From: a virus
Reading direction: 5' to 3' (one strand)
Virus record (IMG/VR): IMGVR_UViG_3300025154_000385
Location: 1-23,764 of that record
Length of the DNA stretch: 23,764 nucleotides
Notes under the pieces: model-generated
What the model was told of the DNA's origin: nothing
The model's database searches: none
What the model saw: only the letters and a program-made list of their open reading frames with translations
Translations under genes and position numbers: made by a program
In this document: positions 4,390 to 23,764 of the stretch, one piece after another
Layout of the letters: the number at the start of each line of letters is the position of its first letter
How positions within the stretch are numbered: the stretch's first letter is position 1

Positions 4390-6018
4390 TCAGGCCAGAG
4401 CCGTCGCTGCCTCTTGACTCTCGGCCATTATTTCCTCTGTATCAGGCCCCGGCATTTCTGCAGAGCCACTTTCATCTTCTTGAACGACCGGCGCAATCTT
4501 CGCCCGCTCGCTCATGGCTTTTATGCGTAAATCAAAGTCGGCTTCGATTGCAAGTTTTTTCTCTTCGGAAAACATCGGATACTCAGGATCGGCATAAACA
4601 AACAGCCGTTCCTTTTCAACCCGATACGTCGGCGAATTGGGGACAGCCTGACTAACTAACGTAAGATCGTTTGCGCGCTCGCTCATCGTCTGGACATTAA
4701 AATCATTCGGGTAGGATACTTGAGTCATTCGTTCTCTTGCAACCCTAGTATCGCCGTCGGCCTCCCACAAGGCCCTGAAGTAGTGGACTCGCTGCTCGGC
4801 CCATTCGAGGCGGTCTGCCAGCGTTGAAAGGTCTTGATTCGTGGGCAGGTAGTCCCACGCCTTTGACACCCCGCTAGTCTCATCCGCGCCCGCGCCAACC
4901 TGTCGAACCAGCATCAAGTCAAAGAGCTGTTTGAGCAGAGAGTTTCGCTCCTGAATCAAAATCCTATAGGGCTGGCCGTTGGTTTCAAGCAGTGTCGGCG
5001 CGAATTTCGCATCAAGCGGGACGCCGATAAATCGCGTCGAGCCGAAAGCCAGTGTAGTCCCCGGCGCGGGCTGACCCGAAATACACGCCGTGCTAACAGC
5101 CGAGAGCCGCACATCTTCCTCAATCTCTGATTCGAGATTGTAGAGTCGCCATATCAAATCCCAGACATCTGCTATCCGCGACACGCCCTGCATGTGATCA
5201 ATCCGGCGGGAAGGCACATAGACAAACGGAATTTCATGCAGCCCGTGAATCTGTGAAGCGACAACCACTTCTAGACCCTGTGCGTCCACGCCGTAGCGCG
5301 TCCATCCTTGGCGTGTCCATATCACTATGCGTTTAGTACTTTCGGCAGTTCGCTCTTGATTCAGCGCGATGTCCGAGGGAATCCACTCACGGAGTTTAAG
5401 TTCCAGAAGATTCCCGCTCGCGTCAACGCGCCAGTCCATGATGTCCGATTTACGGAAAAATGAGACGAATGGCGCAAGGCCCCACTCCTGCTGCTGGGCG
5501 AGAGACTTAGGCCGCAGCACTTCGCCAGTCTTTGGGTCAATCGGCGCGGGTGGACGATCTACAAGAATCCCGCAACCTCCTTCGACTTCCGGCCACGGGA
5601 AAACCAGCTCGGCCATGAAGTTATCAAGTGACATCCCGCCGCGATTGCAGTTTTCCAGAAAGTTTTCTTCGGCCTTTTCATCGCTATCCACAAAGAAAGC
5701 CCGATTGATCGCCCCGGCCTTGAATATGGCCGCAACCTTCAACATTAGTAGCCGCGCCGCAAAATTCAGATAGGTCGCCCGCTGAACCCGCTCATAAAAA
5801 TGCAGAGGAACTTCTTCGGGGTGGCGAAAGAGATAGCCATGACAGGCCGCGTAAGAAAAAGTATTTTGGGGATCGTCTGGATTTTGTCGCGGGGGTGGAT
5901 TCAAGGTTTCGCCAGCCTTGATAACCGCATCACCGCCCAAATAAAAATCAGCTGCCCGCGCATCACGAGCCGCACAAGCACTTACGAAGGGATGAACTTG
6001 GTCAGTGATGACTCCCAC
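4390..6018 (-). CDS. Putative portal protein (DUF4055-like)
   Basis: I place the start at the GTG at 6018: it has AGGAG seven bases upstream and begins VGVITDQVHPFVSACAARDA, giving 542 residues. The longer open frame up to 6078 lacks a ribosome-binding site. The size, the position between large terminase and scaffold-like gene, and the character of the N-terminal part (YERVQRATYLNFAARLLMLK, then FFVDSDEKAEENFLENCNRG) resemble the DUF4055 group of phage portals. Portals form the dodecameric DNA-entry ring at one capsid vertex and dock the terminase. The middle contains beta-rich segments with tryptophans (EWIPSDIALNQERTAESTKR). The last third is helical and ends in an acidic alanine-rich tail. 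No tape-measure or head-closure fusion is apparent. Alternatives are few given size and context. Confidence 0.82.
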   Translation of the reverse strand: MGVITDQVHPFVSACAARDARAADFYLGGDAVIKAGETLNPPPRQNPDDPQNTFSYAACHGYLFRHPEEVPLHFYERVQRATYLNFAARLLMLKVAAIFKAGAINRAFFVDSDEKAEENFLENCNRGGMSLDNFMAELVFPWPEVEGGCGILVDRPPAPIDPKTGEVLRPKSLAQQQEWGLAPFVSFFRKSDIMDWRVDASGNLLELKLREWIPSDIALNQERTAESTKRIVIWTRQGWTRYGVDAQGLEVVVASQIHGLHEIPFVYVPSRRIDHMQGVSRIADVWDLIWRLYNLESEIEEDVRLSAVSTACISGQPAPGTTLAFGSTRFIGVPLDAKFAPTLLETNGQPYRILIQERNSLLKQLFDLMLVRQVGAGADETSGVSKAWDYLPTNQDLSTLADRLEWAEQRVHYFRALWEADGDTRVARERMTQVSYPNDFNVQTMSERANDLTLVSQAVPNSPTYRVEKERLFVYADPEYPMFSEEKKLAIEADFDLRIKAMSERAKIAPVVQEDESGSAEMPGPDTEEIMAESQEAATALA

Positions 6019-6102
6019 GAAAACTCCTCTTCTTACTTCTTGAGCACCGCAGCTACTCCCCGGTTCAAACCACGTCAAGGCTTTTCTTTTCTGGCGTTCA
6101 AT

Positions 6103-7557: not shown

Positions 7558-8010
7558 TTAAGCATCTGGCAGATCGGAAATTTTTTCTGTCTCTTGTCCA
7601 CCAAGCCCGCGTTTCTCACGCTCTTGCTCCTCCCGATTCAGCCGGTCAAGGGCGCGTTGCAACGGATTGGTGTCTTCGCTCCCAAAGCTTGCGCGGGGGC
7701 CATAGTGCTCAGGGAACTCAAGCTCGAGGAGTCGCGCCGCCGCCGTCCAGTATTTCGGGTCGTTCGCTGCGATCCGAATTCTGTTCAGCAAGGCGAGTCG
7801 TCTTTGTTGGCGGGATTTTTTTAATTCTGAAAGAAATGTTTTATCGCTGGCCTTCCATGCCATGAAGGCGCGAACGGAAATTCCTGCGGCTTCGCAAGCT
7901 TCGTTCGTGGTGAATCCAGACCCGAATGCGGAAACGAGGATGGTCTTGATTTCTGGAGTGCGAATCGTAGGTTGTCCGCGTGGAGGGGCAGGGGGCTTTT
8001 TCGTTTTCAT
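7558..8010 (-). CDS. terS: Putative terminase small subunit
   Basis: A 150-residue protein directly before the large terminase. The N-terminus is basic and proline rich (MKTKKPPAPPRGQ). Residues about 30-58 form a helix-turn-helix (GSGFTTNEACEAAGISVRAF, then MAWKASD) of the type small terminases use to recognise the packaging site. A helical middle (KKSRQQRRLALLNRIRIAAN) suits oligomerisation, and the C-terminal tail is acidic and charged (REEQEREKRGLGGQE), as expected for contact with the large subunit. I find no good ribosome-binding site before the ATG at 8010, and no better in-frame start. Gene order supports the assignment strongly. A generic phage HTH protein is the alternative. Confidence 0.85.
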   Translation of the reverse strand: MKTKKPPAPPRGQPTIRTPEIKTILVSAFGSGFTTNEACEAAGISVRAFMAWKASDKTFLSELKKSRQQRRLALLNRIRIAANDPKYWTAAARLLELEFPEHYGPRASFGSEDTNPLQRALDRLNREEQEREKRGLGGQETEKISDLPDA

Positions 8011-8042: not shown

Positions 8043-9416
8043 TCAAGGGGAACTGTCCGATTCTGTAGCTGTCTCTGTTGCCCCGAATTCAACAGGCCCA
8101 ACTGCTGCTGTTGCTTTTCGCGGATCGCCCTTCACAAAAACAAGGACGTGCTCATGCACAGGAACGAGTTTTCTCATGGTTTGAAACATTTTACGAGCCC
8201 TTAACGCCGCGCTTGCGAGGGGCTTTAGGTGAATGGCGTGATTGTAAAACGAACATCCCGCAACCTCGAATCCCCGGATTGTGTCAGAAACAAGACTCAG
8301 TTGCTTCCCAGACTTGTCTCGCGTTTCCGCCACCTCAAAACATGCAAAACGGTGTTCGTGCAACACAGATACCGTCTCTTTAATTGCCCTGAAAAACCCG
8401 TCAAGGAAAGCTTCATAATCAACGGCATTATTCAAATCGTTTTTCAGGTCAGAGTAGTGTTCGCGATTAAAATATGGAGGGGAGGAAAAAATAAAATCTC
8501 CCCGGACTTCTCCTACCAGACGAGCGAAATCTCGACTATCCCCAACCATCCAATTGGGAGCCAACTCAAGCCGTTCTGCTTCTTTTCTATTTGCATCTAT
8601 TTGTTCTTGGCGTAAATCAATTCCGAGATATTCATAGCCGAGTTTCGCCGCAACAATTCCTCGCACACACCCACCAGCAAATGGATCAAGAATAAGACCC
8701 CCCGGAGGACAAAACCACCGATAAGCAATTTCGCATAGCGTGGGGTCAAAAACTCCCGTCCTCTCTCCTTGCATTGGACATGCTTGCAACATTTTCTTGC
8801 TTATTTTTAAAAGGTTTTTCGCACGCCCAGCCAAACTATCAAAACCCAAAGAATCCCAGTCGGCACGTCTTGCCTTCCAATAACTTCGCTTTGCATCAAA
8901 GATAGAAAATGGCGGGATTAAAAAGTCCTTGACAAGATTTCCGGCGCTCGTGCCATCCCCCGGTATAAAATAAGTTACAAGTTCCTCAAACCTCAGCGCC
9001 TCGAATAACTCCGCGTCGCCTATCTTGAGTTCGTCCAGCAGCGACCCCAGCCCCTCGTCAAACTCTCCCGCGACGTGCGGATTGTTCGCGGCGATATTTC
9101 CGGCCTGCTCTGTCTGCAAATCCCAGTCAACCACGCGCACCGGAAATCGCTCGCCCGCCGGTGTGATGACCGCCCCGCCCTCCAGTTTCAGCCTGTCGCC
9201 ATAGAGCGTCTTGAGTGCGTCGAGCCTCTGATGTCCACAGACCAAGTTCCTACTGCGTGAATTGAATACCAAACCTGAAATATCTCCGAACTTTTTGAGC
9301 GAGACTCGCAGCCCTGCCGCCGCCTCGCTCGTGATGGTTCGCGGATTGTAGGAAGCGGGCTTAAGGTCTGCGATTGTCTTGGGCGTCTTTGGCTTGGTCG
9401 TCGCTGCTAGTTTCAT
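8043..9416 (-). CDS. ParB-like domain fused to a DNA methyltransferase
   Basis: Chosen start is the ATG at 9416 (457 residues); a TTG at 9452 would add 12 residues. The N-terminal part has ParB/Spo0J N-domain features: LKPASYNPRTI, then LVCGHQRLDALKTL around residues 58-70, matching the family G-x-Q/R-R box. The C-terminal half has S-adenosylmethionine-dependent DNA methyltransferase motifs: motif I LILDPFAGGCVRG near 241-253, an acidic strand end YLGIDLR, and a catalytic SPPYFN near 312-317. Motif I precedes the SPPY motif, unlike the companion methyltransferase at 9565-10494. Such fusions occur in phages and may protect DNA from restriction or mark it for other processes. The target base cannot be read from sequence; N6-adenine or N4-cytosine is implied by SPPY. 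It lies between the terminase genes and the second methyltransferase. Confidence 0.88.
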   Translation of the reverse strand: MKLAATTKPKTPKTIADLKPASYNPRTITSEAAAGLRVSLKKFGDISGLVFNSRSRNLVCGHQRLDALKTLYGDRLKLEGGAVITPAGERFPVRVVDWDLQTEQAGNIAANNPHVAGEFDEGLGSLLDELKIGDAELFEALRFEELVTYFIPGDGTSAGNLVKDFLIPPFSIFDAKRSYWKARRADWDSLGFDSLAGRAKNLLKISKKMLQACPMQGERTGVFDPTLCEIAYRWFCPPGGLILDPFAGGCVRGIVAAKLGYEYLGIDLRQEQIDANRKEAERLELAPNWMVGDSRDFARLVGEVRGDFIFSSPPYFNREHYSDLKNDLNNAVDYEAFLDGFFRAIKETVSVLHEHRFACFEVAETRDKSGKQLSLVSDTIRGFEVAGCSFYNHAIHLKPLASAALRARKMFQTMRKLVPVHEHVLVFVKGDPRKATAAVGPVEFGATETATESDSSP

Positions 9417-9471
9417 GGTTTTTCTTTTGCGCCTTTCAGAAATCAAAGTCAACCTATAGGTTCATGGGGTC

Positions 9472-9564: not shown

Positions 9565-10494
9565 TCAGAGACTCCCGAACATGTCCTCATCCTCACCATG
9601 ATGTTTTATCTCGGCAAGGTTGCGAACCGCTTGATGGTAGTAAGAGGGTTTTAATTCGATTCCAATCCCGCGCCGTCCGTTCATCACCGCTCCATAAACT
9701 TCAGAGCCGACGCCCATGAATGGCGTGAGCACAACCTCGCCGGGGTTAGACCACAAGACGCAGGCGCGCTCAATCACGTCGAGCTGAAGGGGACAAATGT
9801 GCTTTTCGTCCATTGGATCGCGCCCTGCTCTTGCGTTTAGTGTTCTTGTTTGGCGAATGTCCATCCAAACAGGAGATGCATAAGCGCGCCAGATGTTATG
9901 TGCCGCGCCAATTCCCACTCCTCCCGGCGCGTGTTTCCCACAATACGTTTTTAATCCGTCGAGGTGAGAAATCGGCGTTGCATTTTCTCCGGGCTTCCGA
10001 AAAGTCAAAAGATAATCTGGAAGTCCGGCGCGACAAATCGCACTATCCTTAACGAGTTGCTTGTGCATAAGGCCAAGTGCTTTTGTCCTCGTCGCCTCAA
10101 TCAACGGGTCTTTCCAAATGATGTGACGTGAATGATAGATGAACCCGTTGCTCTGAAACAGCCGGATAATATCTCCCGGAAAATCCTTCAATCCAATATA
10201 TCCGTCGCGTTCCTTCATCGCCGGAATATCTATACAATGAACCGCACAGTTGCGCCCAAGTTTCATGACTCGGAAAATCTCGCCGACAATATATCCGAAG
10301 TGCTCGAAGAATTCTGAGTAATTCCTACAATTCCCAAGGTCTGCGGGATTATCGCTATAGCAGTAGAGATCGGCAAATGGCGGAGAAAAAAGAGTCATGT
10401 CTACGCTTGACTCTGGCAGCGTTTTTAACACTTCGCACGAATCTCCGCAATAAAGTGCATATCTCTCTGTGATCGTTTGTTCCATCACAGCCAT
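9565..10494 (-). CDS. DNA methyltransferase, N6-adenine/N4-cytosine type
   Basis: A 309-residue methyltransferase in the order typical of the beta class. The catalytic motif DMTLFSPPFADLY is at residues about 32-44, near the N-terminus after the YCGDSCEVLKTLP segment. The cofactor-binding motif VVLTPFMGVGSEVYG is near residues 254-268, followed by GRRGIGIELKPSYY. The middle region (about 60-240) would carry target recognition. The start ATG at 10494 has AGGAGG seven bases upstream inside the preceding helicase gene and overlaps its end by ten bases, so the two are translationally coupled. The protein probably methylates phage DNA, giving protection from host restriction or altering regulation. 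No partner endonuclease gene is visible. Which base and sequence it modifies cannot be told. Confidence 0.92.
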   Translation of the reverse strand: MAVMEQTITERYALYCGDSCEVLKTLPESSVDMTLFSPPFADLYCYSDNPADLGNCRNYSEFFEHFGYIVGEIFRVMKLGRNCAVHCIDIPAMKERDGYIGLKDFPGDIIRLFQSNGFIYHSRHIIWKDPLIEATRTKALGLMHKQLVKDSAICRAGLPDYLLTFRKPGENATPISHLDGLKTYCGKHAPGGVGIGAAHNIWRAYASPVWMDIRQTRTLNARAGRDPMDEKHICPLQLDVIERACVLWSNPGEVVLTPFMGVGSEVYGAVMNGRRGIGIELKPSYYHQAVRNLAEIKHHGEDEDMFGSL

Positions 10495-11921: not shown

Positions 11922-12178
11922 TGCTCACAACTTTCATCCCAGCGCGTATCAACCCAAAGCGGCCTGCCCAAACCCGCCGCCTCTTCTGATTTAAGCAGGC
12001 ACGAGGACTTGAACTTCGAGGAGTTCGCCCCGGCCCCTTCGCGGCCCCTCCAGTGCTGGCAGGATTTGCAAATTCCGTCAAGGTAGGTGACGCGGGGTTT
12101 GTGTGCGAGCGGCTCATTGAGCGCCGCGCAAAATGTGAGGACGATGTCAGGCATGTAATTGAACTGGGAGCAGCTCAT
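11900..12178 (-). CDS. Small Cys-rich protein, probable zinc binder
   Basis: A 92-residue protein with the pattern GICKSCQHWRG (Cys 37 and 40), then Cys 60 in KSSCLL and Cys 84 in DESCEQWE. A CxxCxHW box followed by two single cysteines and a tryptophan is a layout I associate with small phage proteins that probably bind one zinc ion. Its ATG overlaps the stop of the helicase-loader gene as ATGA, with AGGAG upstream at a rather long distance. A competing minus frame starting at 12117 overlaps it but has no coupled start. The role is unknown. Its place between a helicase loader and an SNF2 helicase suggests a replication accessory function, by inference only. Confidence 0.7.
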   Translation of the reverse strand: MSCSQFNYMPDIVLTFCAALNEPLAHKPRVTYLDGICKSCQHWRGREGAGANSSKFKSSCLLKSEEAAGLGRPLWVDTRWDESCEQWEKRRD

Positions 12179-13152
12179 TTTGTTTTTGCCTCTCCTGTTT
12201 TTTGGGAATCAAGCGCAGCCTTGTTTTCTTTTTTATCCCACGTCCTAAGCGAGTTATGCCCGAAATAAATCTGCGGCCCGCTTTTGAATCTATCCGCCAC
12301 CGCGTCCCAGGGATCGCCCCATGCCGCGATTTGGTCTAGCGAGGCATTACAGGCCAGCAGGACGGGCTTGAGATTTTCATATCGCAAGTTTATGAGGTTG
12401 TAAAAAGTAGTGGACTTGTAGGGTGTCCGATTGATTTTATCCGCGTCGTCAAGAATCAAGAGATCGGCAAGGTAGAGCCGATCAAGGATTTCGTTTTCTG
12501 ATTCATCGCTTGCAGGGTCATTCGAGGCCGCAAGTTTTTTCAGAAGCATCTCACCCTCGTAATAGGCGACAGTGACGTGATGTTTTTCACAGTGCTGTCG
12601 GACGCCAAGGCAAAGAAATGATTTTCCCGTTCCTTTCCCGCCGTAAATAAAACACGGGGAGCCTTCATGTTTCGGGTTTTTCAGGATCGGCCCAAGCCAC
12701 TCAGACATGACTCTGGTTTTGATCGTTGAAAGAGCCGTACGGGTTGCCGGTGGAAATTGATTCTGCGCTTCGCGGGCGGCTTGCAGATAGCGATGACCCG
12801 TGGGGGTCGAGTCTTGCCGGATAGATTCTCCCACGGCGGCGACGTGGTCTTGCTGGAGTCGCGCCACCATGTTTGGACAGGCACGGGTAGTCGGGCAATA
12901 GATGGATTCACGGGCGATATTGAGACAGGTAGGGCGAAAGGAAATAGAAACGCCACTGGAGTCCGTGCTTCGCTTCTGGATTATTTTTGCCCGCTCGACA
13001 AGAGCATCTTCGGCTGACAGGTGCGCGAGTTCCAGGAAGGCGGTTCGCCAGTTCCAACGCTCCCTCCATTCGAGGGCTTCGATAGGGGCATCGAGCAGAC
13101 AGGCTTCGCGCTTTGGCATTCCGCAATGTTTGCAAGATTGAACAGCAGTCAT
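12175..13152 (-). CDS. DnaC/IstB-type helicase loader, AAA+ ATPase
   Basis: A 325-residue AAA+ protein. Walker A is IYGGKGTGKSFLC near residues 169-181, Walker B is LLILDDADKI near 231-240, sensor 1 lies in VLLACNASLD near 264-273, and a DRF near 287-289 could hold a sensor or arginine-finger residue. This matches the DnaC/IstB group that delivers the replicative helicase to single-stranded DNA. The first 95 residues are unusual for the family: they contain SCKHC at 6-10 and a later set C76, C86 and C92, which could bind zinc or an iron-sulfur cluster. The start ATG overlaps the DUF1376 gene's stop as ATGA. No replicative helicase is encoded here, so it may load the host one. A primosomal role fits the upstream initiator-like gene. 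Confidence 0.88.
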   Translation of the reverse strand: MTAVQSCKHCGMPKREACLLDAPIEALEWRERWNWRTAFLELAHLSAEDALVERAKIIQKRSTDSSGVSISFRPTCLNIARESIYCPTTRACPNMVARLQQDHVAAVGESIRQDSTPTGHRYLQAAREAQNQFPPATRTALSTIKTRVMSEWLGPILKNPKHEGSPCFIYGGKGTGKSFLCLGVRQHCEKHHVTVAYYEGEMLLKKLAASNDPASDESENEILDRLYLADLLILDDADKINRTPYKSTTFYNLINLRYENLKPVLLACNASLDQIAAWGDPWDAVADRFKSGPQIYFGHNSLRTWDKKENKAALDSQKTGEAKTK

Positions 13153-14306
13153 ATCGGGCCTACACTTCTATGGCCTTTAAGGAATTGCTCCGTCTCGGCC
13201 CTTGTGACTTCGGGTTGTTTGATTTCTGCGGCGGCGAGTTCTGCGTCGCGTTTATCGGCAGCGTCTGCCAGTTCGGTCGCTGTCGGGCACGGCCTTCGTC
13301 GTTGCGCTTCCTCAGCCTCGCGCTCGGCAAGCCAAGCCTGTGTTTCTTCACGCTCCTTCGCGTCTTCGGCATCCCACAGGGCAATTTCTTCCGGCGTTGG
13401 CGTCTTCATAGGCGGGGCCGTCTTTTTCTGGGCATCCTTCTGCCCGTTGCCCGCCCGCCACTTTTGCGCTTTCTGGATAAGCGTTGACTTCTGGCGGATA
13501 AGGGCGTGGGTGTATCCGCGCTTCATATTCCCAAGCCCGAAAGCCCAGTCCGGGTCAGCGGCGGGGTCTGCCAAGTACTCGAGCAGCAGGTTGACCTGTC
13601 CAAGCCCGGTGTCGTCGAGGATGGTGTCCATGACCCCGGCAAAGAAAAGGGCGACAGCTTGGGAGCCGTGAGTTCCCCCGTCGCGGGTTGCTCTGAGGTC
13701 AGCATAGAGTGTTCCAAGGTTGACGGCTTCTGGGTGTCGGTATTTGTGGGGTAGTTTGTTGGTTTTTTCTTTGTTTTTTTGTTGTGTTTTTTTTGTGGGG
13801 GTAGGGGGTTCTTTTTCTTTCTTTGAAGATGAAGAAGAAGATGAAGAAGAAGATGAAGAAGAAGAGCACGACCAATCGTTAGACGATTGGTTAGACGATT
13901 GGTTAGACGATTGGTTAGACGGATCGTTATCGTTTTCTCTCTCAGCAATCCTCTGTTGGCGAGCCAGAACTCCAGCCCTCGACGCTGATTCTCTTCGACT
14001 TCTGCGCTCCGCCTGTGCTTCTTTTTGCTTTTGTAGGCGGTCGTTGAAGTAATACTCCGCCCCGTCAATAGTCCTTCGATCAAAATGCTGTTCAATGGTC
14101 GGCCATGCTTCAGCAAGCTCGGATTCGGTACAACCAATCATTGAACGAATCGTTGAACGATTGGTTGGCAATCCCCTTGACATCGGGTAAGTCCAGAACT
14201 GATCGAGTAGATCACGGTAAATCGCACGCGCAACAAGAGACATTTCGTGGCGCGTGCCGCTCGCAAGCCAATCCTTCGGATACCACTGATACGCTGGGGC
14301 GTCCAT
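13149..14306 (-). CDS. DUF1376-type replication initiator-like protein
   Basis: A 385-residue protein. Residues about 5-95 (YQWYPKDWLASGTRHEMSLV onwards, including RAIYRDLLDQFW) match the DUF1376/YdaU N-terminal domain found in phage proteins that sit before DnaC-like loaders and are thought to start replication. Residues about 129-161 are low complexity: SNQ repeats encoded by 12-bp DNA repeats, followed by a long serine run. A basic linker (KKEKEPPTPTKKTQQ) then leads to a helical C-terminal half rich in glutamate and alanine. This is the lambda-O style layout: DNA-binding N-terminus, linker, and a C-terminus that would contact the loader. The start has GAAAGGG upstream. The gene overlaps the loader by ATGA. 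The candidate origin inside it is listed separately. Confidence 0.85.
   Translation of the reverse strand: MDAPAYQWYPKDWLASGTRHEMSLVARAIYRDLLDQFWTYPMSRGLPTNRSTIRSMIGCTESELAEAWPTIEQHFDRRTIDGAEYYFNDRLQKQKEAQAERRSRRESASRAGVLARQQRIAERENDNDPSNQSSNQSSNQSSNDWSCSSSSSSSSSSSSSSKKEKEPPTPTKKTQQKNKEKTNKLPHKYRHPEAVNLGTLYADLRATRDGGTHGSQAVALFFAGVMDTILDDTGLGQVNLLLEYLADPAADPDWAFGLGNMKRGYTHALIRQKSTLIQKAQKWRAGNGQKDAQKKTAPPMKTPTPEEIALWDAEDAKEREETQAWLAEREAEEAQRRRPCPTATELADAADKRDAELAAAEIKQPEVTRAETEQFLKGHRSVGPI
13828..13926. repeat. 12-bp iteron-like repeats and purine-rich tract, candidate replication origin
   Basis: Three exact tandem copies of TTAGACGATTGG occupy 13879-13890, 13891-13902 and 13903-13914, and a partial fourth runs to 13926. 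The first copy forms an inverted repeat with the preceding bases: CCAATCGT, three bases, ACGATTGG. Next to them lie three exact copies of GATGAAGAAGAA (13828-13863), and beyond that a T-rich stretch (about 13760-13820) giving strong strand asymmetry. Iterons next to an easily melted, asymmetric tract inside an initiator gene is the layout of the lambda origin. The repeats are in frame and encode SNQS units and serines, so a coding explanation is also possible. Confidence 0.55.
14141..14164. repeat. Second pair of 12-bp iteron-related repeats
   Basis: TTGAACGAATCG (14141-14152) is followed directly by TTGAACGATTGG (14153-14164), with CCAATCA just before at 14134-14140. The second copy differs from the main iteron TTAGACGATTGG at two positions. 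It lies in the part of the same gene encoding the DUF1376 domain, where the protein is not low complexity, so coding bias does not easily explain the match. It may be a second initiator-binding site about 240 bp from the first. Confidence 0.45.
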
Positions 14307-23604: not shown

Positions 23605-23764
23605 TCAGTCAAAAATACCCTTCGAGATCAACCATGTCGGGATCGTTTCTCGTCGGAGTTTATCGCACCCACTCAGATAAAGCCCGCCCCCGATAGACAT
23701 GCCTTCGGGAATTGTCAGCGAGGTTAGAGCCGAACACCCGCGTAGATCAAGCCAGCCCCCGATA
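23605..23764 (-). CDS. Leucine-rich-repeat-like protein, C-terminal part only
   Basis: An open minus-strand frame enters from the right edge and stops at TGA 23605-23607, giving the last 52 residues. It contains GGWLDLRGCSALTSLTIPEG, then a second, related unit beginning MSIGGGLYLSGCDKL, and ends TWLISKGIFD. Both units share GG-x-L-x-L-x-GC and TIP/LTIPEG features at a spacing of about 23 residues, like the LRR-type repeats of some phage and bacterial surface or accessory proteins. The N-terminal part, any signal peptide and the number of repeats lie outside the window. The role is unknown; binding to another protein is typical of such repeats. Confidence 0.65.
   Translation of the reverse strand, partial: IGGWLDLRGCSALTSLTIPEGMSIGGGLYLSGCDKLRRETIPTWLISKGIFD

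Follow-up and report, generated by a model that had tools for sequence, protein, structure and literature searches.

In phage lambda, the replication origin is located in the middle of gene O (PMC7466680). The RepA_N initiators of plasmids and PLE satellites (pSK41, pTZ2162, and PLE RepA) bind semi-palindromic iterons by means of an N-terminal winged helix (PMC7145576). Origins of the pSK41 type lie inside rep, and the RepA_N plasmids of the pSK41/pTZ2162 type are not known to carry a loader gene. In iteron plasmids of the RK2 TrfA type, the unwinding element consists of repeats that are read by Rep on one strand (PMC4081077), and the Rac prophage is said to hold an active origin, oriJ (PMC3945230). 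Phage replication modules are reportedly treated by Weigel and Seitz (2006). The domain DUF1376 has no function assigned in Pfam; in the literature searched, we found neither a replication study of this domain nor a report of the intragenic origin proposed here, and subscription papers, such as that of Weigel and Seitz (2006), may hold parts of it.

Here, we describe a stretch of viral DNA of 23,764 nucleotides (the window) in which a DUF1376-like gene carries clustered short repeats. It is likely, with a probability of about 0.8, that these repeats form an intragenic, lambda-style replication origin that is bound by the DUF1376 winged helix; both the binding and the origin activity are inferred. 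What the analysis shows is the repeats and their frames, the constraint at the DNA level, the position in the gene, the low stability of the DNA, the adjacent loader gene, and the recurrence of the arrangement throughout the family.

The initiator-like gene of the window and its repeats

The product of the initiator-like gene (Table 1) comprises an N-terminal winged helix, a long helix, a low-complexity linker, and a C-terminal part without a recognized family. The protein matches phrog_12767 (E 9e-10), a profile that also matches five of the five tested genomes holding DUF1376 genes, and phrog_6451, a "primosomal protein" (E 6.5e-6). Its match to DUF1376 itself (PF07120; E 1.4e-4, 22.6 bits) is under the Pfam cut-off of 30.1 bits, and no Pfam match to Phage_rep_O, the N-terminal domain of O, was obtained at E ≤ 0.01. 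The domain can be aligned with 60 DUF1376 domains. With a common profile and fold and a score under the PF07120 cut-off, the protein is a divergent DUF1376 relative in the wider sense. Residues 1–130 gave a confident winged-helix model (pLDDT 89.4), whose top structural matches were RepA plasmid-initiator chains (Z 7.2 to 6.2), including 4pql (Z 7.2, rmsd 4.2, 90 residues aligned) and 5kbj (Z 6.7). These scores are middling, and the RepA matches are weak: Z remains below 8, with ORC2 and other winged helices close behind.

The product of the downstream gene matches phrog_50 (E 1e-21), phrog_3277 (E 8.6e-19), and the AAA+ family Bac_DnaA (E 5e-10). The sequence-only reading had placed a DUF1376 gene before a DnaC-like loader, and this order held, with the reservation about PF07120 given above. 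Elsewhere in the window, positions 8043–9452 encode a ParB-like nuclease/partition domain fused to a DNA methyltransferase, and a second methyltransferase is encoded at 9565–10494.

Table 1. Positions of the genes and repeat elements in the window.
Feature	Position	Strand	Remarks
DUF1376-like initiator gene, 385 aa	13149–14306	−	ORF; initiator role inferred
DnaC-like helicase loader gene	12175–13152	−	Directly downstream of 13149–14306, 4-nt overlap
Iteron AACCAATCGTC, linker cluster	13906–13916	−	
Iteron AACCAATCGTC, linker cluster	13894–13904	−	
Iteron AACCAATCGTC, linker cluster	13882–13892	−	
Terminal inverted iteron GACCAATCGTT, linker cluster	13870–13880	+	
GATGAAGAAGAA repeats, 3.4 × 12 nt, 100% match, polyserine-coding, GA/TC-rich	13825–13865		TRF
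Candidate unwinding element, T-rich (A-rich on coding strand)	13763–13862		Nearest-neighbor stability profile
Iteron AACCAATCGTT, second cluster, winged-helix-coding part, other reading frame	14156–14166	−	
Centre of near-palindromic second cluster, AACGAATCGTT	14144–14154	+	
Inverted iteron closing second cluster, AACCAATCATT	14132–14142	+	

Along the minus-strand gene, the elements follow the order domain, iterons, serine/GA repeat, A-rich tract, and C-terminal part. The sequence-only reading had described three perfect 12-bp repeats with a partial fourth, an 8-bp inverted repeat over the first, three other 12-bp repeats, and a T-rich stretch. Direct reading and TRF confirmed three perfect copies of TTAGACGATTGG (13879–13890, 13891–13902, and 13903–13914) and the partial fourth (13915–13926), as well as the GATGAAGAAGAA repeats and a T-rich stretch at about 13755–13823. 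The inverted repeat held in part, its actual length being 9 bp (ACCAATCGT at 13871–13879 and ACGATTGGT at 13883–13891). The orientation had to be corrected, the array being in a minus-strand gene, and a second cluster at 14131–14167 had been missed. The three TRF rows at the linker region score highest in the window (92, 88, and 82; the next scores 74), and the linker peptide reads SNQSSNQSSNQSSND, then polyserine. The second cluster, about 240 bp from the first and in the winged-helix-coding part, consists of AACCAATCGTTC / AACGATTCGTTC / AATGATTGGTTG with a 12-nt step and in other frames; it is near-palindromic, with 18-nt arms that are 89% complementary. In a nearest-neighbor profile of a 46 kb relative (see below), only one 100-bp stretch is less stable than that starting at about 13763 (99.95th percentile).

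Across the 23.8 kb window, five copies of the word ACCAATCGT are present, compared with 0.21 expected, and none of 100 dinucleotide shuffles reached five. All five copies are inside the initiator-like gene, four in linker-coding DNA (three direct, one inverted) and one in the second cluster, and they are read in different frames. When the gene was recoded synonymously with the protein unchanged, five copies of any 9-mer were produced neither in 3000 recodings with codons permuted within the gene nor in 3000 that followed the phage codon usage. The different frames of the copies, together with the failure of all 6000 recodings to reach five, therefore indicate selection or copying on the DNA and not on the peptide. 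The earlier view of the linker as dictated by DNA signals is well supported for the iterons, and also for the heptamer arrays of relatives presented below; for the polyserine/GATGAAGAAGAA stretch it is possible but unproven.

A 46,227-bp record is 99.93% identical over the whole window. It also contains five copies of ACCAATCGT, all in the DUF1376-like gene, and the motif does not cluster anywhere else in the 46 kb. There are no differences between the two sequences beyond window position 7759, and 14 of the 16 differences are packed into 7627–7759, within the terminase small-subunit gene (7558–8010), and 4570–4622, within an ORF at 4390–6078; this crowding into two short stretches suggests local exchange. 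The right end of the window (23666–23764) lies within a tandem repeat of about 78 bp of this relative, where it has two further matches, and the assembly was therefore probably broken there. A search of viral contigs for closer but distinct relatives of the window phage gave near-identical records only. The protein and the phage had no match in the phage collection, and no relative of the phage was present among 387 genomes of one phylum, where an empty result is uninformative. Since only near-identical relatives were found, the window's own motif could not be followed beyond them.

Helically spaced repeats and heptamer arrays in DUF1376 genes

For the family-wide count, loci were gathered with peptide patterns that covered only the first ~25 residues of DUF1376 proteins, a limit that avoids any bias toward repeats further on. 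Among 240 loci (L028–L267), eight were without a suitable ORF, and genes shorter than 360 nt were excluded before clustering; with the addition of 12 seed genes, 116 non-redundant genes were obtained. Exact repeats of at least 8 nt were counted under a proportional low-complexity filter, with 50 rounds of synonymous shuffles and 282 neighboring genes as controls. The 9-mer counts in the family were unchanged between two low-complexity filter rules.

The 116 genes contain 56 repeats at 11 nt (shuffle mean 3.8, maximum 9; neighbor-scaled 2.3) and 28 at 22 nt (shuffle 2.4; neighbor-scaled 0.9). One or both of these spacings were found in 52 of the 116 DUF1376 genes and in 6 of the 282 neighbors (Fisher 7e-26; shuffle mean 6.0, maximum 11), and the exact test detected no 11- or 22-nt repeat in the remaining 64. 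Further clear excesses within distances of 8–40 nt were seen at 8, 12, 14, 21, and 23 nt. As 11 and 22 are not multiples of 3, neighboring copies are in different frames and are not amino-acid repeats. These 84 repeats are mostly located at nt 300–450 of the gene (67), with 14 at nt 100–250. In addition, 13 of the 47 genes with linker iterons have a further copy of the iteron word at nt 100–250 (shuffle mean 4.0, maximum 9), and such copies mirror the second cluster of the window. The iteron motifs vary among phages and fall into several unrelated classes (AACGACCGTTCAACG, GCGAACGCA, AACCCA, GCAAATGCA, and others). DNA repeats conserved despite protein divergence, which had been proposed as a check, are thus found family-wide in the form of a conserved spacing and position, with differing motifs. 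The correlation between motif and recognition helix was positive but tiny (partial r 0.08, p 0.011).

In 16 longer records, such repeats reach 0.85 per kb within the DUF1376 gene versus 0.032 outside. The A/T content is maximal in the 60 nt after the iterons, at 0.55–0.59 versus a gene mean of 0.48 and a synonymous expectation of 0.49–0.53 (46 genes). For both measurements, the filter dropped long words with one base seven or more times, and for the density in the 16 records, as for their skew (see below), the gene ends of the G-records were estimated from domain positions. The ORF after the DUF1376 gene, examined at 100 family loci and counted family by family, is lambda-P-like in 12, DnaC-like in 8, and DnaB-like in 7. 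A pair test behaved as expected on its controls, being positive for lambda O and Gifsy-2 O (both p 0.002) and negative for lambda P (p 0.32) and for the window's loader (p 0.50). In Gifsy-2 O (L308:559-1536), 9-mers occur at 22-nt spacing (454/476 and 559/581); helically spaced intragenic repeats are therefore not confined to DUF1376.

The 14-nt repeats are mostly an array of AACCANN heptamers, present on the coding strand only and, in most genes with both elements, just downstream of the iterons. The word AACCANNAACCA is found in 45 of the 116 DUF1376 genes (shuffle mean 15.2, maximum 24) versus 1 of the 282 neighbors, and four consecutive AACCANN units in 35 of the 116 (shuffle mean 0.63, maximum 4; 200 rounds). 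Because the arrays were found by their bases, codon counts within them are partly circular, and the evidence rests on the shuffle test instead. When viral contigs were scanned with the AACCANN DNA pattern alone, at least 80 loci were recovered; in 75 of 80, the array is within a DUF1376 ORF, at a median of 372 nt from the domain start. Of the other five, two are apparently DUF1376 genes truncated at the ends of contigs, and the remaining three are of another kind. In viral contigs, the array is nearly diagnostic of DUF1376 genes, and it could possibly serve as an unwinding or single-strand binding element. Examples of carriers are L126, L141, L179, and L187, with the array at about nt 350–500 of the gene. 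The window gene has no AACCANN array, and an A-rich tract is found in its place.

The origin reading and its rivals

Under the origin reading, the gene product would be an origin-binding initiator with the origin inside its own gene. The N-terminal DUF1376-type winged helix would bind the repeated AACCAATCGTY sites, which form two arrays, the first in the coding sequence of the disordered linker and the second about 240 bp away in that of the winged helix. Once bound, the initiators are predicted to wrap the DNA and to melt the A/T-rich tract that follows the linker array; recruitment of the DnaC-like loader encoded by the next gene would then fall to the C-terminal part, and this loader would put host DnaB on the opened strand. 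The scheme would correspond to the lambda O-ori-P system with a different DNA-binding domain and with a step that is usually 11 bp, and 12 bp in the window. Binding, wrapping, melting, loader recruitment, and origin activity are all inferred, in the absence of binding or replication data. The same hidden layout recurs across DUF1376 genes, which makes it a pointer to the family's function. The lambda-like origin candidate of the sequence-only reading is supported by the family repeats and by the match in layout with annotated lambda O.

The GC-skew check did not support an origin in the window's own phage: in the 46 kb relative, the skew does not reach a minimum near the gene, the detrended one lying 14 kb away. 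In 9 of the 16 longer records, the detrended minimum lies at most 1.5 kb from the gene (random mean 1.5, p 0.0005), a result that is confounded by strand switches. This agreement is given little weight because most minima are near divergent gene switches, which would be sufficient alone. The 12-nt step of the window, a multiple of 3, also speaks against the origin reading, as do the 64 family genes without an 11- or 22-nt repeat, the divergence of the window protein from DUF1376, the near-identity of its only relatives, and the weakness of the motif–helix correlation.

One alternative is that the array is a mere amino-acid repeat generated by slippage, as in other low-complexity linkers. The 12-nt step preserves the frame (SNQS repeats), and the neighboring GATGAAGAAGAA array is microsatellite-like. 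However, the same word is found 240 nt away, inverted and in another frame, and the 11- and 22-nt steps of the family are impossible as amino-acid repeats and are not produced by synonymous shuffles; this explanation is largely refuted. The repeats might instead be operators through which the DUF1376 protein or another regulator controls its own or downstream transcription, with the origin elsewhere. A winged helix suits a repressor, and many structural matches of the model are transcription factors. Nevertheless, the sites lie 140–440 nt inside the gene, in tandem, helically spaced and beside an A/T-rich tract, and what follows the gene is often one of three kinds of loader or replicative helicase. 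We regard this rival as very unlikely, although autoregulation in addition to origin function is still allowed.

There is equally little to recommend the view that the repeats serve for packaging or, in the manner of a centromere, for partition, and are not an origin. The Foldseek matches of the model include TubR, a winged helix that binds centromeres, and iterons occur in partition sites too; against this, it is helicase loaders or replicative helicases that recur next to the gene, no partition ATPase was recognized in its neighborhood, and the packaging genes are 5–7 kb distant in the window. Lastly, the region could be an accessory replication element, such as a second origin or an enhancer, in a genome whose main origin is elsewhere. 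The GC skew of the phage itself points elsewhere, and two clusters 240 bp apart are unlike the single array of lambda. Nonetheless, there is no other motif cluster in 46 kb, and the initiator and loader genes are adjacent, which leaves this possibility improbable as well.

A bolder version of the origin reading, toward which we lean by a narrow margin, is that DUF1376 proteins form a large, so far unassigned class of phage initiators, with the origin embedded in the DNA for their own linker. Such origins would consist of 11-bp-phased iterons with a phage-specific motif, followed in many cases by a strand-specific AACCANN unwinding array, and linker peptides such as NDRSTTVQ and N-H-K-P-I-T-N would be by-products of DNA signals. 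The window would then represent a variant with a 12-bp step and an additional array in winged-helix-coding DNA, and E. coli oriJ would lie in ydaU. If this is true, it would reveal for many phages and prophages, one of them in laboratory E. coli, what the protein does, by which mechanism, and where the origin maps. The family would also illustrate clearly how a DNA signal can shape the sequence of a protein, and its heptamer array would be a new candidate unwinding element.

Comparison with known systems

RepA chains of the RepA_N type provide the best structural matches of the window protein, but their Z of 7.2 is within the range of unrelated winged helices. The relatives with AACCANN arrays resemble iteron plasmids of the RK2 TrfA type in having a short A/T-rich repeat array beside the iterons on a fixed strand (PMC4081077), whereas the heptamer and its coding position are apparently new; the window itself is without this array.

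The likeness to lambda concerns layout. In both phages, iterons and an A/T-rich tract are within the initiator gene, between the parts that code for the DNA-binding and C-terminal regions, and the loader gene comes next. The four annotated iterons of lambda are at nt 349–433 of O, nearly the same gene position as the DUF1376 iterons (nt 300–450). The window differs from lambda in its DUF1376-type DNA-binding domain without a Phage_rep_O match, in its DnaC-like loader, and in its second cluster in the winged-helix-coding part. The repeat step also differs: 12 bp in the window, 11 bp in relatives, and about 20–24 bp in lambda.

The YdaU-YdaV pair of the Rac prophage (E. coli K-12), like the window, combines a DUF1376 protein with an ATPase gene. 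In YdaU, a DUF1376 domain is followed by a C-terminus that shares 47% identity with the C-terminus of the Gifsy-2 protein annotated as a lambda-gpO homologue; its list of structural matches is of the same kind as that of the window protein, and the low-confidence residues of its model (123–163) partly overlap the iteron-coding part. In contrast to the window, ydaU has a different motif, spacings of 33/22, and an O-like C-terminus. In its linker-coding DNA, GTTCAAACA occurs three times, twice in direct and once in inverted orientation (NC_000913, about 1421512–1421576; locus L017); A-rich DNA comes next, and these iterons and the A-rich DNA may be the core of oriJ.
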